Shown in pieces: positions 13,207 to 19,717 of a stretch of DNA of 49,270 bases. The stretch's first letter is position 1. Every line of letters starts with the position of its first letter. The notes under the pieces are model-generated. The model did no database searches and was not told the DNA's origin. It saw only the letters and a program-made list of their open reading frames with translations. The position numbers were made by a program, and so were the translations under genes. Source of the stretch: an uncultured Mycoplasmatota bacterium. GTDB lineage: Bacteria > Bacillota_I > Bacilli_A > RF39 > UBA660. Location of the stretch: NCBI GenBank assembly GCA_947643405.1, contig CANRVY010000008.1:1-49270 (forward strand), in the 5' to 3' direction.

Positions 13207-14175
13207 TCATATCATTTTTTCAATTTTTATTGTTATATCCACTTCATTATTCTTTATATTTAATTTGCAATATGAACCTATAGGAAGGGTAAACATTGGA
13301 TTGGTATGTCCAAAATCCGCTCCACATAAAATTGGAATATTTCTCAATTTCTCCTTATTTTTTATTACTGCTTTCAGTTTATCAATAGTCATATTGCTAC
13401 ATAATTGAAATCTGCCAAAAACAATTCCTTTTATATTACAATTGAGCAGTTGCAATAATGATTCTAAATTCCTATCAAATTCTAACAAAAACACATCATT
13501 TCCAAAATCATCAGCATCATCTTCTATAAACAAAATACAATTATCTAAACTTGGCATATATTCTGTTCCTTGCAATAAATTTATTGTACATAAATTCCCA
13601 CCAATAATTTGACCTTCTGCTGTACCACTTTGAATTGGTATCATGCCTTCATTTTTTAAAATCATTTTTTCTATTTTTCCATTTTCTTTTTGATAGTCAT
13701 ATATTTCTTCCGATGAAGTAATTACAAAATTCTTATTTTCTAATATTTTTTCAAAGTATTGTAGAGTATATTCATTTTCAGAACTAAATCCGCTTAACAT
13801 TGGTCCATAGTATGTAACCAAACCTGTTTTCTTCTTTATTGCAATTAATAATGCAGTAATATCAGAATAACCAATAATCATTTTAGGATTTTTCCTAATT
13901 ACATCATAATCTAAATAAGGAAGTATTTGATTAACATTATATCCTCCTTCTGCACATACAATGATTTCAACATTTTTATCTAAAAATGCATCCATTAAAT
14001 CTGCGACTCGATTTTTTATACTAGCACATTCAAAATAAGCTTCTTTTTCAAAAAGATGTTTTCCTAATGTCAATTCGTAACCCAATTTTTTAAAATATTC
14101 TTCCGCTTTTGATATTTTAATTTCTTCTTTTTCTGATAAGCTCATCGAGGGAGCAATCAATCTAACTTCTTTCAT
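13207..14175 (-). CDS. S66 family LD-carboxypeptidase / MccF-like peptidase
   Basis: This 322-residue protein matches the S66 plan: Ser nucleophile in GYSDITAL (Ser104), an acidic pair in LFIEDDADD (about 215) and His in CGADFGHTNP near the end, with LPIG after it. S66 enzymes either trim the D-Ala of murein tetrapeptides (LdcA) or hydrolyse microcin C-like peptide nucleotides (MccF); the sequence alone does not decide. The start overlaps the upstream S51-like gene by 14 bases, with AGAAAGGAA before it, so the two are co-translated and under the same attenuator. Confidence 0.85.
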   Translation of the reverse strand: MKEVRLIAPSMSLSEKEEIKISKAEEYFKKLGYELTLGKHLFEKEAYFECASIKNRVADLMDAFLDKNVEIIVCAEGGYNVNQILPYLDYDVIRKNPKMIIGYSDITALLIAIKKKTGLVTYYGPMLSGFSSENEYTLQYFEKILENKNFVITSSEEIYDYQKENGKIEKMILKNEGMIPIQSGTAEGQIIGGNLCTINLLQGTEYMPSLDNCILFIEDDADDFGNDVFLLEFDRNLESLLQLLNCNIKGIVFGRFQLCSNMTIDKLKAVIKNKEKLRNIPILCGADFGHTNPMFTLPIGSYCKLNIKNNEVDITIKIEKMI

Positions 14176-15634
14176 GTTTCATTTCCTTTCTAAAAAGTTT
14201 TTTTTGTTTTTCTGTAGAATCAATTATCTGTTGTGGTCTTCTCGTGTTTTCTACTTTTATAGCATTTAATACTTGTTTTAATTCTCTATTAGAAAATAAA
14301 CTTCCACATGTATCTACCACATAATAAACAAGTCTATCATTCAGTGATATATAACTACAAAGTAAGTCATATAAATCTTTTTTAAAATCAGAATAATAAC
14401 CTTGATATTCGATATAAGATTTTTTAATAAAACTAACTAAAGTCATTTTTAAGTACAATTCTTCTAAGTAATCTGTAGATCTATCAACATGATATTCCTC
14501 TACAATATCTTCATTTAAGTTTTTAAATCTTCCTTGTAATTCTAAATCTGCTCTAAAATTAACTAAATTTTCTTCACCAAACAAATAATCTAATTTTAAC
14601 TTTAGTGCCTGTCTCCATTCATTCACCTGTAATTGATTTCTTACATCTTTTGCTTTTTCTTTTTGTGCATATTCATAAGCTATATTTTTTTCTGATGATG
14701 TTACGGTTTCCATTGAAGTTCTCACCAATGACTGAGCAATACGCTTAATAATCGCTAATAGTCCGCTATCAAATACATTTCTTTTATTTTTTATTTGATT
14801 ATACTGATTTACAAGTGCGACTAGTTCAGTTACATCTGACGTTTGAAATTCACTTGTAATTGGCAAAATTTCTCCATCAATAAATAAATACATTTCACCA
14901 TAAGAATACACTCTCTCTTCTCCAATTAAAAATAGACTATTGGGTTTACAAGCAAAGAAGACACATCTATTGCTATCTGGCTTTAAATAAGTTTCAACAA
15001 ATGTTATATTCCTTTCAGTTGTAGCATCATTTGGGAAAAAATCAGTTTCCATAGTAACTGGATTAATACCTAATGATTGAATACGAAACGGGTATTCATA
15101 TGGTTCTTGTCCATAATAATAATGATCATATAACCCACCATATATTCTTTCTGCTGACATTACACTTCCTGAGCAAATTGACGAAACCAATATATTCTGA
15201 TTTCTGATTAATTCATTCAGTTTTATTCCTCTTTTTTCTAAAGCAAAAAGAGTACTAGCAAATTTACTATCAGCCCCTATTCCTAAAAATAGCAAATCAC
15301 ACTGTTCTATATTTTCTAATGTTTCTTCTACATTATCCACATCAACTACTGTTAAATTATTTTTATTAAGTTGTCCATATCCTAAGTCATTCAAATAATA
15401 ATTATAAGCACTAATATATAATTTGGCTCTACTTACATTATCTTCTTTTGAATATCCTCCAATATAAGTAATTTTAATATCATTTAAATTTCCTTTTACT
15501 TTTAATAGTTCTCCAAATAAAGATACATATTTTCTTAAAAAGGGATTATCGATCAAGGATTTATTTACTCTTGGATTTCCTCCACTTGTGATAATGGTTG
15601 GATAACTTCCCGCTATCATAATATTTCTTTCCAT
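14162..15634 (-). CDS. S51 (peptidase E/cyanophycinase-like) protein with extra C-terminal domain
   Basis: This protein has about 490 residues. Residues 1-260 resemble the class-I glutaminase-like S51 fold: an N-terminal MIAGSYP, LFLGIGADSKF, and a nucleophile elbow ISSICSGSVMSAERI, followed by PVTMETDFFPN where S51 proteins have the His loop. The remaining ~230 residues are a helical, charged region not seen in ordinary peptidase E (about 230 residues in total), so this is a fusion or extended form. The start at 15634 has AAAGAGAG upstream; an ATG at 15658 is possible. It lies directly behind the attenuator terminator. Confidence 0.65.
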   Translation of the reverse strand: MERNIMIAGSYPTIITSGGNPRVNKSLIDNPFLRKYVSLFGELLKVKGNLNDIKITYIGGYSKEDNVSRAKLYISAYNYYLNDLGYGQLNKNNLTVVDVDNVEETLENIEQCDLLFLGIGADSKFASTLFALEKRGIKLNELIRNQNILVSSICSGSVMSAERIYGGLYDHYYYGQEPYEYPFRIQSLGINPVTMETDFFPNDATTERNITFVETYLKPDSNRCVFFACKPNSLFLIGEERVYSYGEMYLFIDGEILPITSEFQTSDVTELVALVNQYNQIKNKRNVFDSGLLAIIKRIAQSLVRTSMETVTSSEKNIAYEYAQKEKAKDVRNQLQVNEWRQALKLKLDYLFGEENLVNFRADLELQGRFKNLNEDIVEEYHVDRSTDYLEELYLKMTLVSFIKKSYIEYQGYYSDFKKDLYDLLCSYISLNDRLVYYVVDTCGSLFSNRELKQVLNAIKVENTRRPQQIIDSTEKQKKLFRKEMKHERS

Positions 15635-15670
15635 AATTAACATCTCTCTTTCTGTCATTCTTTAATACTA

Positions 15671-15710
15671 ATTAAATAAAATAAAAACTATACAGTCATA
15701 CCTGTATAGT
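15671..15710 (-). terminator. Attenuator terminator before the S51/S66 operon
   Basis: ACTATACAG (15702-15710 read on the minus strand) pairs with CTGTATAGT (15687-15695) around a six-base loop, followed by a T-rich tract to 15671. It lies between the leader peptide and the first structural gene rather than after a gene, which is the position of an attenuator. Confidence 0.8.
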
Positions 15711-15789
15711 CTTATACTTTCACACAGGCAACAAGCACCACAAATAGCACTTGTTACCTACAACAATAATTGTCGTATTTTACAAGTGC
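15687..15789 (-). promoter_or_regulatory. Candidate ribosome-mediated attenuator
   Basis: Minus-strand segments can pair in alternative ways. GCACTTGT at the end of the leader ORF (15782-15789) can pair with ACAAGTGC (15747-15754). The longer AGGTAACAAGTGC (15747-15759) can instead pair over 13 bp with GTGCTTGTTGCCT (15726-15738). TGCCTGTGTG (15721-15730) can pair over 10 bp, with wobbles, with TATACAGGTA (15699-15708), which would break the terminator. A ribosome stalled on the His codons leaves the first segment free, which favours the antiterminator; a ribosome reaching the stop codon favours the 13-bp hairpin and termination. Confidence 0.7.
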
Positions 15790-15830
15790 AGATTATTATG
15801 ATGATGTTGTCTATTCATTTGCTTTAACAT
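15780..15830 (-). CDS. Leader peptide with His-codon run
   Basis: This 16-codon ORF encodes MLKQMNRQHHHNNLHL and ends in TAA. AAGGAGAG lies six bases before its ATG, and a consensus promoter is 25 bases upstream. Codons 9-11 are all CAT (His) and codon 15 is CAC. Size, promoter, ribosome site and the following hairpins match amino-acid leader peptides that act by being translated rather than as proteins. Histidine (or charged tRNA-His) is the likely signal, by inference. Confidence 0.75.
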   Translation of the reverse strand: MLKQMNRQHHHNNLHL

Positions 15831-15854
15831 AACAATCTCTCCTTCATGTTTAAG

Positions 15855-15883
15855 ATTATAATGGATAAATTTTCATTTGTCAA
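15855..15883 (-). promoter_or_regulatory. Consensus sigma-A promoter of the leader/S51/S66 operon
   Basis: On the minus strand TTGACA (15878-15883) and TATAAT (15855-15860) are exactly 17 bases apart, a perfect vegetative consensus. The -35 box overlaps the stop codon of the upstream transglutaminase-like gene. Such a strong promoter fits control downstream by attenuation. Confidence 0.88.
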
Positions 15884-18734
15884 ATTTTTTCTGAAATACC
15901 TTTTGTATTTCACTTGAATGTTCTCTCATAAATGGAATTTGATCCACCAGCTTTAAAGCAGTTTTTAATTCCTCACTACTTAGTCTACTTTGCTTCAATT
16001 GCTTTCTGAGATTTTTTAAATCCTCTTTTGTAAAGCCACTAAACTCTGCATTTACAATATTCAAAGTTTCAAGCAAACTTCTTTCTATTGGAACATGAAT
16101 TCCATTATACATTGTTTCTTTTAATTTTGCGTAATTTGTTTTAAAATCTTCTTCCATAAATGTTTTCTCAAGCTTTCTTGTTTCAACATGAAATTTTATT
16201 TTTTTCCCAAACAATTTATAATTTAAATAAACAATTAAAGCCATAATAATTATCTGTGGAAGATGATTTCCTTGTCCCCAGCTTAAAACATTTTTTATAA
16301 AATCTTTTTCTCCTGATAAAGTTGTATTACTTACTTGTCTTTCTTCTGTTGTAATAAATGATTGTTCAGAATCGTCCTTTTTTTCTGCACTCAAAATTTT
16401 TTCAAAAAAATTCTTTTCTTTTTCATGTGCTGGAGTTACATCAATAATTTGACCTTCTTGGGTCATTGCCCAAGCATGGGCTTCACTCTCTGTTATTATC
16501 ATATCTTCTGAATTATAAAACCCCACTGTATAAATAAGTTCCTCATCTACGCCTACTGCTAAAGTAGCTGCCAAGTTACAAATAAGAGAATCTATCGAAG
16601 CAATTGTTTCATAAAATTCTTTCTCTTCTAATTGTTCAATTTGTTTAGATAATCCAGCATCTTCAATTGGAGTAAGAGAATATAATCGACTCTTTATAGC
16701 ACTAAAAATCTCATAATCAGACACTGAAGTTTCCAAACCCAATCCTGAAATAATAGCCGTTCTAATTTCTTCAGAAGGATACTCCGTATAGGAAGAAGTT
16801 TTTTCTAAATCTTCTACAAAACTATTTGGGAAACGCTTTGAAATTCCATAAGTACAACATATTTGAGGCTTTTCTATAGAATATAATGCCTCAATCGATG
16901 ATGAATAAATGCTAGGGTATGATAATAATACTTTTCCATCTTCAGAATATACTCTAATTTCTTTTCCTTGAGCATCAAGGTCTATGATCGTAATACTTGT
17001 AATTACATAGTTATCCCCAACTGGATAATATAGTTTTTTTAGCAATAATTGATTATTAACAATAGCATTCTCCAAGCTACTTTTAGAAATTCTATATTCT
17101 ACGCTAAATAAATCTTCTACTTCTTCCATCTCAGAAAAATTAATGTAATCATTTTCAATATTATATTTTACTTGACCACTTGCATAAGCCGCTGAAGTAG
17201 CATATTTAGTAGCAAAATAAATTGGTAGTGGTTCTTCTGTAAAAGAAGTTATTTTTGCTACTATTCTATCACTAGTTGCATTATCCTTTGAATCACCTGT
17301 CATACTATCTGAAATATCAAAATCAAAATCTAGATCACGCATTTTACGAAACAAATCTTTTAAGTGATTATATTCAAATTCAAATGAACGCAAATGAGGA
17401 GTTAATATCCATTCAATTACATTTTTACTAACAGATGAATCTTTATTACCCAAACAATATTGTTGAAACAAATCATAAGAAAGTCCAGTGATATATATCG
17501 TTACAAGAAACCCAAACGTGATACATATTCCTATATAAAAATTCGAAAATTGTTTTACATACTTATCAACAGTTGTATATAACCCTGGAACAGTTTTAAT
17601 CCTATGAGCTTTCTTTTCCTGATACATTTTATAAATATAATCATAAAAACTATGATTATTATCCTTTTTTAAAAAAACATTGTTTTTATCTTGACACAAA
17701 TAAAGATAAAATGCACTAATTCGTAATATTTCCTGATTGTCATTTTTAAAATTTGCTTGGTGTAAAAGCATTTGGTAATTTAATACCCCTAAGAAATCAT
17801 ATAAATCAGTAACAGCATTTCCAATAACTTCCCCTTTTGTATTTGTAGAAACAACATTCACAAATTTTCCTTTAATCGTTACATTTTGAAAGATTTTCCC
17901 ATGACTTCTATCTTTATAAGAACTATCGCTATTAATGATATACATTAATCTTTGATTCACAATCAACTTTAACAATTTTAAATTTCCATTTAATAAAAAT
18001 TGATCAACTGCGCTCTTAATTACTTGATCTGTTATATTTTCTGAAAGTAACATTATTTTTTTCTTATCTATTTTAAAAGCTTCTAATCGATGAATCAAAT
18101 TTCTTAAATCATCTGGATTTAGTACCAATAATGAGGTTCCAATTTCTGCTTTTATATCATAAGAATCTGTCTCTACATCTTCCATAACTTGGTTCTTCCC
18201 ACGGTCTAATAAATCAGCCATATTAACAGATAAAAAACAATCAAGATTGGCTTCTGGAAACAAATCTGCTACATCATTTTTCCTTAATAATATTTCCTGT
18301 ATATTATGAAGATCACATAATCGCGAAATTCTTTTTAATTTTTCTACATAGTCTTCTATCCCAATACTCCCATTTTCTTCATAGAAAATAGCAAGTCTTG
18401 TATCCTTAGAATGTTCGATTGGAAAACACTTTTTTTCTATAGCAGAAAGAGCTATTTTTTGCTTTATAATGTCTACATTAACCCCTAAAACTTCACGAAT
18501 TTGTTCTTGAGCTTCTTTTACTTTTTCAATCGGAGAAAATAAAGATCTGATTTTTTCATATATGATTACTCCACCATATAAGATTCTAGAAAACAGTAAA
18601 ATATTGGTTTTTATCAATTTTCGTTTCAAAGAAGTATCCGCTAAAACGCCTTCTCTTAATGCAATTGTATCAAATAAATCTCCATTTTGCTCTATTACTT
18701 CTAGACAGTTTTTTACTTTTTCATAATCATTCAT
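15873..18734 (-). CDS. Large membrane protein with transglutaminase-like domain
   Basis: This 953-residue protein has an N-terminal charged helical part, a membrane helix at about residues 400-425, an exported central region and a second membrane helix near residue 855 (PQIIIMALIVYLNYKLFG), then a cytoplasmic tail. In the exported part, SLICNLAATLAVG, EAHAWA and IIDVTP supply Cys, His and Asp in transglutaminase-like order (about 719, 753, 766). It follows a MoxR ATPase gene by 11 bases; MoxR plus membrane transglutaminase is a known pairing, usually with a DUF58/vWA protein that is absent here. The substrate is unknown. Confidence 0.65.
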   Translation of the reverse strand: MNDYEKVKNCLEVIEQNGDLFDTIALREGVLADTSLKRKLIKTNILLFSRILYGGVIIYEKIRSLFSPIEKVKEAQEQIREVLGVNVDIIKQKIALSAIEKKCFPIEHSKDTRLAIFYEENGSIGIEDYVEKLKRISRLCDLHNIQEILLRKNDVADLFPEANLDCFLSVNMADLLDRGKNQVMEDVETDSYDIKAEIGTSLLVLNPDDLRNLIHRLEAFKIDKKKIMLLSENITDQVIKSAVDQFLLNGNLKLLKLIVNQRLMYIINSDSSYKDRSHGKIFQNVTIKGKFVNVVSTNTKGEVIGNAVTDLYDFLGVLNYQMLLHQANFKNDNQEILRISAFYLYLCQDKNNVFLKKDNNHSFYDYIYKMYQEKKAHRIKTVPGLYTTVDKYVKQFSNFYIGICITFGFLVTIYITGLSYDLFQQYCLGNKDSSVSKNVIEWILTPHLRSFEFEYNHLKDLFRKMRDLDFDFDISDSMTGDSKDNATSDRIVAKITSFTEEPLPIYFATKYATSAAYASGQVKYNIENDYINFSEMEEVEDLFSVEYRISKSSLENAIVNNQLLLKKLYYPVGDNYVITSITIIDLDAQGKEIRVYSEDGKVLLSYPSIYSSSIEALYSIEKPQICCTYGISKRFPNSFVEDLEKTSSYTEYPSEEIRTAIISGLGLETSVSDYEIFSAIKSRLYSLTPIEDAGLSKQIEQLEEKEFYETIASIDSLICNLAATLAVGVDEELIYTVGFYNSEDMIITESEAHAWAMTQEGQIIDVTPAHEKEKNFFEKILSAEKKDDSEQSFITTEERQVSNTTLSGEKDFIKNVLSWGQGNHLPQIIIMALIVYLNYKLFGKKIKFHVETRKLEKTFMEEDFKTNYAKLKETMYNGIHVPIERSLLETLNIVNAEFSGFTKEDLKNLRKQLKQSRLSSEELKTALKLVDQIPFMREHSSEIQKVFQKKFDK

Positions 18735-18745
18735 ATTTATTTCCT

Positions 18746-19663
18746 CTAACGTCTTTTCATAAATAGTATTTTATTTTTCACTTCATCAAATTTATCTAAT
18801 ACTTGTTTTTCACCAATACAAGCAATATTCTGATCAATTCTATGCATATAAACATAATTTACAAAATCTACTATATCAGAAGGGAAAATCTGACTTCTTC
18901 CATTCCGAAGCGCTGTAAGCTTCGCTAATTTAAGAGCAAATTTATGTGCCCTGATGTTAGAACCTCCAAACAATCTTTGACCATCTAAAGTCATAGAATC
19001 AATAAAACGGAATATTTGCATCATAATATCTTCATCTTGTTTCTCTGTCATAAAGGTAGAAACTGCATATGCTGCTTCTACTAATTCGTCTAACTTCAAA
19101 TGACTTTCTGTTTTAGATTCAAATCCACTAAAAAATAGTTTTCTTTTTTCGTCTTCTGTTAATTCATCAAAGTATATATTAATATCAAAACGATCATAAA
19201 CTGCTTGTGGAACATTAAAAACACCCGCTATATCTGCACTATTTTGAGTTGCAAGTACATAAAAATCATGAAATTTATACTTTTCTCCCCCTATACTCAT
19301 CTGTTTTTCAGCAAATAACTCTATAAAAGTTGATTGCACTTTTCCACTAGCTCTATTAAATTCATCAACTTGTAGTAATTGCATATCTTGCCTATTTTTC
19401 AGTTGTTCTTGAACATCACTTGGAATCATATCAGATGTAACAGAAATTCGTTCAGAATTAAAACTTGTTGCCAAAAAATTAGATATTGTTGTTTTTCCTA
19501 CTCCTGTATTTCCAGTCATCAAAATTTTACTACTCGTATCACAAAGTATGGAAGAAGCAATTGCATTCTTTGCCTTTGACTGACCTATCAAAACTTGATC
19601 TAACGCAGTAAGTGTAGAATGATAGATTTCGAGTACACTTTCTATTGCTTTTCTTGTTATCAT
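18746..19663 (-). CDS. MoxR family AAA+ ATPase
   Basis: This 305-residue AAA+ protein has Walker A GNTGVGKT (51-58), Walker B LLQVDEFNRA (about 96-105) and the MoxR-type sensor stretch FYVLATQNSADIAGVFNVP followed by an Arg finger region VYDRFDI. MoxR ATPases act as chaperones for partner membrane or vWA proteins; here the partner is the transglutaminase-like protein directly downstream. The start at 19663 has GGGGGATTATA before it. The longer frame to 19693 would begin upstream of the predicted transcript start and is rejected. Confidence 0.85.
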   Translation of the reverse strand: MITRKAIESVLEIYHSTLTALDQVLIGQSKAKNAIASSILCDTSSKILMTGNTGVGKTTISNFLATSFNSERISVTSDMIPSDVQEQLKNRQDMQLLQVDEFNRASGKVQSTFIELFAEKQMSIGGEKYKFHDFYVLATQNSADIAGVFNVPQAVYDRFDINIYFDELTEDEKRKLFFSGFESKTESHLKLDELVEAAYAVSTFMTEKQDEDIMMQIFRFIDSMTLDGQRLFGGSNIRAHKFALKLAKLTALRNGRSQIFPSDIVDFVNYVYMHRIDQNIACIGEKQVLDKFDEVKNKILFMKRR

Positions 19664-19688
19664 TATAATCCCCCTTTTTTGCCACGCT

Positions 19689-19717
19689 ATCATAGCATAT
19701 CACCAATAAATTGTCAA
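19689..19717 (-). promoter_or_regulatory. Promoter of the moxR/transglutaminase operon
   Basis: On the minus strand TTGACA (19712-19717), a 17-base spacer ending in TGC, and TATGAT (19689-19694) form a strong promoter with an extended -10. The predicted start of transcription is about 20 bases before the MoxR start codon at 19663. Confidence 0.85.

Follow-up and report, generated by a model that had tools for sequence, protein, structure and literature searches.

In Firmicutes, short leaders with His codons are recorded before hisS paralogues and hisZ (Naville and Gautheret 2010, PMC2965389), and in Erysipelotrichales and others they precede his operons (Ashniev et al. 2022, PMC9413887). S66 (MccF) and S51 (MccG) enzymes are known to inactivate aminoacyl-nucleotide antibiotics (PMC9239234). 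The window analysed here, a stretch of 49,270 nucleotides from the genome of an uncultured Mycoplasmatota bacterium, contains a leader that precedes a pair of genes with relationships to these two hydrolase families. This leader is very probably a leader-peptide transcription attenuator that senses the charging of tRNA-His, and judged from sequence comparison this is by far the best fit among the readings considered. It appears to belong to a regulon that would unite HisRS (type PRK12420) with accessory genes that can be exchanged, and the gut bacteria concerned are apparently auxotrophic for His.

The leader has the parts expected of such a device (Table 1). The promoter TTGACA-17-TATAAT, which a preliminary description of this DNA had called perfect, scores 12/12 at 15883-15855 on the minus strand and is the sole perfect promoter within the scanned region; its -35 element overlaps the final codons of the gene upstream. 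The 16-codon open reading frame with His-His-His claimed in that description is likewise present, reading MLKQMNRQHHHNNLHL at 15830-15780 (minus strand) and preceded by the SD sequence AAGGAGAG. A single instance of GCACTTGT-N-ACAAGTGC-N-GTGCTTGT is present in the window, and 0 of 100 shuffles contain this pattern, and the leader fold lies 5.9 standard deviations below dinucleotide shuffles. The terminator (15713-15684) combines a 12-bp stem with a U tract, against an expectation of 0.4 in shuffles, and an intrinsic terminator stands between the leader and the first gene in nearly all related leaders. Upstream of the leader is the gene for a 953-aa membrane protein with no Pfam match (15873-18734), which is also found in G001 and G005, and adjoining it is a gene for a MoxR-like AAA ATPase (18746-19693).

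Table 1. Features of the predicted attenuator and of the genes behind it, in positions of the window.
Feature	Position	Strand	Basis or remark
Whole attenuator leader	15883-15674	minus	precedes S51-like/S66 gene pair
Sigma-70 promoter TTGACA-17-TATAAT	15855..15883	minus	12/12 match
SD AAGGAGAG	immediately 5' of leader ORF	minus	sequence
Leader ORF MLKQMNRQHHHNNLHL, stop included	15780..15830	minus	sequence and homologous leader peptides; ATG at 15830, TAA at 15780
Three His codons CAT CAT CAT, predicted sensing codons	15798..15806	minus	sequence; His run in 45/53 distinct leaders
Segment 1 GCACUUGU, ORF end	15782..15789	minus	pairs with segment 3; invariant in nine founding leaders
Small hairpin within 1:3 stem	15760..15776	minus	folding
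Segment 3, core ACAAGUGC at 15754-15747	15747..15760	minus	partner is segment 1 or segment 4
Segment 4 GUGCUUGUUGCCUG	15725..15738	minus	builds 14-bp 3:4 hairpin; covariation
Antiterminator 5' arm UGCCUGUGUG	15721..15730	minus	overlaps segment 4; register-specific pairing
Antiterminator 3' arm UAUACAGGUA	15699..15708	minus	overlaps terminator 5' arm
Intrinsic terminator hairpin and U tract	15674..15713 (hairpin 15713-15684)	minus	12 bp
S51-fold protein, 498 aa, Cys162 in nucleophile elbow	14162..15658	minus	AlphaFold model, fold match, alignment
S66 peptidase (LD-carboxypeptidase/MccF superfamily), 322 aa	13207..14175	minus	Pfam PF02016/PF17676, PDB relatives

From this arrangement we infer ribosome stalling, read-through and an order of folding. 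With His-tRNA plentiful, the ribosome would get to the stop codon and mask segment 1; segments 3 and 4 would then pair, the antiterminator would be broken and transcription would terminate. With His-tRNA scarce, the ribosome would halt at CAT CAT CAT and leave segment 1 free to capture segment 3 first, segment 4 would be available for the antiterminator, and the S51-like and S66 genes would be transcribed. The alternative structures, which the preliminary description had proposed to compare by free energy, have computed values in the window leader of -16.5 kcal/mol for 1:3 plus its inner hairpin, -18.4 kcal/mol for the 3:4 hairpin, -10.7 kcal/mol for the antiterminator and -14.3 kcal/mol for the terminator. 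The antiterminator has the 10 bp first attributed to it; the alternative hairpin exists as claimed, with a length of 14 bp and not 13. Formation of 3:4 removes six of the ten antiterminator pairs, and the remaining four, at +2.7 kcal/mol, are unfavourable.

The pairings are retained among relatives. Across 23 leader sequences, 95.7% of cells in the 3:4 hairpin are paired and four pairs are changed on both sides, a covariation that exceeds all 500 shuffles and far exceeds slid registers. The antiterminator of window-type leaders has 98% of its cells paired in the given register and at most 55% when slid, and its changes are mostly one-sided, with one double change; in 48 of 48 leaders tested it beats a shuffled partner sequence (mean z -1.6). 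A mutually exclusive antiterminator that is kept by pairing is thus a property of window-type leaders. No clean equilibrium switch was found in hisS-type leaders, in which 3:4 fails to exclude the antiterminator as defined here.

Folding with a simulated ribosome on the window leader gives a graded picture. A ribosome placed at the stop codon lets 3:4 appear as soon as segment 4 emerges; when its A site holds the first His codon, 1:3 is the earliest to form. At equilibrium the antiterminator has a probability of about 0.30 if the ribosome is stalled at His codon one or two and of 0.08 if it is at the stop codon, and a ribosome with the third His codon in its A site leaves 3:4 to prevail. In these models the direction of the switch is right, its size is modest, and it is not clean at equilibrium. 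Since 3:4 is favoured at the third His codon and the antiterminator reaches only about 0.30, read-through would need a putative kinetic trapping of 1:3.

A covariance model built from nine leader copies was used to search 386 genomes of the family, and matches were found in 46 of these genomes and 33 of 150 genera. For 54 matches, 53 of them distinct, the leader peptide and the gene that follows were determined by eye. A His run is present in 45 of the 53 distinct leaders, 37 of which have at least three His codons consecutively; five of the remainder have an Arg run, two a Cys run, and one has neither. A promoter of at least 10/12 accompanies 47 of the 54 leader matches, though it lies outside the covariance model. 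The preliminary description had looked to relatives for conserved His codons and compensatory changes, and held that loss of the His run or of the pairing segments would speak against it; the relatives show the 45 His runs and the four double-changed 3:4 pairs, and far from being lost, both elements persist in dozens of leaders. Comparison at the sequence level establishes the anatomy, its conservation and covariation, and the sharing with hisS. Model matches on the reverse strand overlap forward ones and were taken as palindrome artefacts, and one viral contig with the core pattern lacks the scaffold and was taken as a chance occurrence. Weak matches before hisZ-hisG operons within the class are of the same kind as the published His leaders of his operons.

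The genes behind the His leaders are varied. hisS occurs in about 21 cases, and the other cargo comprises S51(-S66), PRTase/LOG, M20 with GNAT, HisG-like genes and DapF-like relatives of histidine racemase. hisD is absent in 16 of 16 genomes checked, so these bacteria seem to be auxotrophic for His, and their HisG-like genes do not belong to a full biosynthetic route. In L078 and L082, whose genomes lack hisD, the first open reading frame past the His leader encodes a standalone HisG-like ATP phosphoribosyltransferase. A DapF-like protein is encoded behind the His leader in L083, where it adjoins hisS, and in L092, where it adjoins a GNAT gene; the best solved relative of the L092 protein is the Fusobacterium histidine racemase, and both catalytic Cys motifs are present.

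Leaders with other codon runs also have recognizable neighbours. The Arg run MKLFLQNNRRRYR on the same scaffold precedes M20 peptidase and GNAT-like genes in L084 (870-1022; G000 C18:6369-6521, plus strand), which is the third scaffold copy in the window's own genome (G000), and further Arg-run leaders are L085, L086, L100 and L102. Cys-run leaders, with runs CCCC and CC, lie before cysS in L101 (3062-3209) and L097 (3013-3151, minus strand). The scaffold in L099 (707-862), with no His, Arg or Cys run, stands before an ABC-F gene, and perhaps responds to a ribosome drug.

The regulated genes are linked to His in that the leader stands before hisS and, in one case, is in one operon with it. The window genome's own hisS, on another contig, is directly preceded by the same His leader, and the same is seen in two further species of the genus (three genomes in total). 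In G029 (L005) the operon order is leader-S51-S66-hisS, and this is the sole full hisS found in that genome. A decayed hisS fragment with two stops follows S51-S66 in G098 (L012; G098:C6:33785-34045), which has an intact hisS elsewhere; the fragment suggests that a second hisS was lost from that operon. The S51-S66 pair is rare, being present in 2 of 98 relatives and also in three MAGs labelled as uncultured Tenericutes or Erysipelotrichaceae, and the leader accompanies it in every occurrence. The same two further species of the genus (L046 and L047) have PRTase-like and LOG-like genes at the site that S51-S66 occupies in the window (13207-18734), behind a near-identical leader and after the same large membrane-protein gene. 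With S51/S66 and PRTase/LOG at the same site behind the same leader, the switch is constant and only its cargo differs.

The S66 assignment of the second gene, which overlaps the S51-like gene by 14 nt, is secure: its product has S66 domains above the curated Pfam cut-off, and its nearest PDB relatives are Lmo1638 and BA_5613, then MccF. The S51-like protein has no Pfam, NCBIfam or PDB sequence match, and its AlphaFold model (mean pLDDT 69) matches dipeptidase E/cyanophycinase with a best E of 1.8e-7. The nucleophile elbow reads S-I-C162-S-G, with Cys replacing the catalytic Ser, and an alignment of five homologues contains no invariant His; the protein has the PepE/cyanophycinase fold, but neither the Ser nucleophile nor an invariant candidate for the catalytic His. 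Of the S51/S66 peptidase operon proposed earlier, the S66 member stands by Pfam and the S51 fold by the model, but 'S51 peptidase' has no sequence match and a Cys for the Ser; the term is right for the fold and putative for the activity. PADLOC gave no defence match for the S51, S66 or PRTase proteins, and the S51-like protein was not found in the plasmids or viral contigs searched.

Tentatively, we suggest by analogy with the action of MccF and MccG on microcin C that the two proteins may together confer resistance to an agent that blocks the charging of tRNA-His, for example by breaking down a peptide- or aminoacyl-nucleotide inhibitor of HisRS. The S66 protein is closest to the MccF-like group, the S51 family confers McC resistance as MccG (PMC9239234), and the pair shares an operon with hisS in G029 and is followed by the decayed hisS in G098. 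The GNAT proteins of sister operons recall MccE, and the distribution of the pair is sporadic. Against this, the S51-like nucleophile is a Cys, and the closest PDB relatives of the S66 protein include some annotated only as LD-carboxypeptidases. We know of no natural His compound of the McC type, and no natural aminoacyl-nucleotide targeting HisRS was found in the literature searched. Resistance had been offered as a speculation in the preliminary description; it gains from the hisS linkage and the MccG/MccF precedents, and loses from the Cys at the nucleophile.

A somewhat less probable role is His scavenging, in which the S51-like and S66 proteins would release His from unusual or isomeric peptides, a part that M20 peptidases and a histidine-racemase-like enzyme would play in sister operons. 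It fits the lack of hisD in all 16 genomes and the presence of His leaders before M20 peptidases and the DapF-like protein related to histidine racemase, but leaves the PRTase/LOG pair, the standalone HisG genes and the GNATs behind the same leader unexplained, and enzymes of the S66 and S51 families are not known to act as general exopeptidases. We slightly favour resistance because MccF (S66) and MccG (S51) inactivate aminoacyl-nucleotide antibiotics and hisS lies in the same operon; scavenging remains strong given the apparent His auxotrophy and the racemase-like and M20 genes under the same leader.

The His codons themselves could have a role other than codon sensing, with HHH acting as a regulatory nascent peptide or being conserved merely for RNA pairing of the CAT codons with AUUUGUGGUG. 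CAT is strongly preferred to CAC in the leaders and the ribosome-free fold pairs the His codons with segment 4, but several leaders have CAC instead, Arg or Cys runs occupy the same scaffold with the Cys ones before cysS, and the hisS association also argues against it. The frame is moreover shifted directly after HHH in L048 and L074, with RNA segment 1 GCACUUGU (GCACTTGT) intact, so that in these two sequences conservation falls on the His codons and on the RNA segment; we regard this explanation as improbable. That the leader is a T-box or other tRNA-binding riboswitch is more improbable still: T-boxes are frequent in the same genomes (12 in G000) and one precedes hisS of G099, but none lies near the G000 hisS or the window leader, which is unmatched by Rfam covariance models (proteobacterial His_leader, T-box) even at a relaxed threshold, miRNA noise apart.

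Sensing of tRNA-His charging may extend to translation in the PRTase-like gene, which behind the His leader is broken at CCC CAT in eight loci of six genera (L061, L066, L069, L070, L079, L080, L090 and L132), out of ten full loci. The eighth such locus, in G775, was found later, and both the leader and the CCC-CAT site are present there. In the zero frame a stop follows 6 codons past CCC CAT (12 in L080), and the +1 frame continues the conserved protein; in L046 and L047 the gene is in-frame, with CCA ATT at the site. The A-site codon at the slip site is His (CAU). Upstream of the site are G-rich SD-like stretches, which in L061, L069 and L070 lie exactly 3 nt from CCC, and the SD-like element in the RF2 layout has this same distance to the slip codon. 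A split gene or sequencing error was rejected as the main reading, given CCC-CAT in eight loci and six genera and no consistent second start.

The PRTase might then be made only via a programmed +1 frameshift at CCC-CAU and be doubly gated by lack of His-tRNA, in transcription via the attenuator and in translation via a hungry-codon frameshift; together with the recodable scaffold this would be a starvation-sensing cassette system, a proposal about which we are in some doubt. As a caution, CCC-C before a conserved Ile codon forces CAT, and the PRTase loci share descent, so the His link of the frameshift codon could be a coincidence, as a rough guess an improbable one. The structure predicted for the PRTase (pLDDT 61) is similar to purine phosphoribosyltransferases, and the protein was not found in the phages searched. 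According to a 2016 review, no starvation-specific trans-frame product from hungry-codon frameshifting was known (PMC5009743), and the PRTase site is a testable candidate for programmed frameshifting of this type, a matter that the recoding field has yet to settle.

In uncultured gut bacteria whose genomes otherwise depend on T-boxes, these leaders would constitute a regulon for His-tRNA stress, with one RNA scaffold reused with different codon runs and moved among unrelated genes. A gene behind such a leader likely matters when tRNA-His cannot be charged, and the leader may therefore help to locate genes for resistance or scavenging. It also hints that an as yet undiscovered natural inhibitor of HisRS may exist. 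Within incomplete coverage of the literature, we found no description of peptidase cargo, of cargo exchange behind a fixed switch, or of His, Arg and Cys runs on one scaffold.

Several described systems share parts of this design. The Bacillus hisS*/hisZ leaders (PMC2965389) have in common with it a short His-run open reading frame, transcription attenuation, a hisS paralogue and their occurrence in Firmicutes, a likeness at the level of description; here the cargo extends to S51/S66, PRTase/LOG, M20 and racemase-like genes, and the scaffold is common to Arg and Cys leaders. Leaders of Erysipelotrichales his operons (PMC9413887) come from a related lineage and have 3-5 His codons with a terminator and antiterminator, but control His biosynthesis, whereas the 16 genomes checked here lack hisD. 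Microcin C immunity by MccF (S66) and MccG (S51) involves the same two hydrolase families, which are paired here; their known targets are AspRS inhibitors, whereas the link here is to HisRS, and the S51-like protein has a Cys and an extra C-terminal helical region. The PRTase site resembles the RF2 (prfB) +1 frameshift in its G-rich SD-like stretch, slippery P-site codon and slow A-site codon, although in RF2 the A-site codon is UGA and here it is His CAU, with an SD-like element that is strong in some loci only. The E. coli pheST and his/trp leaders share the stalled-ribosome logic, with pheST controlling a synthetase; in contrast to these, the 3:4 hairpin here would be an anti-antiterminator that lies upstream of a separate terminator.
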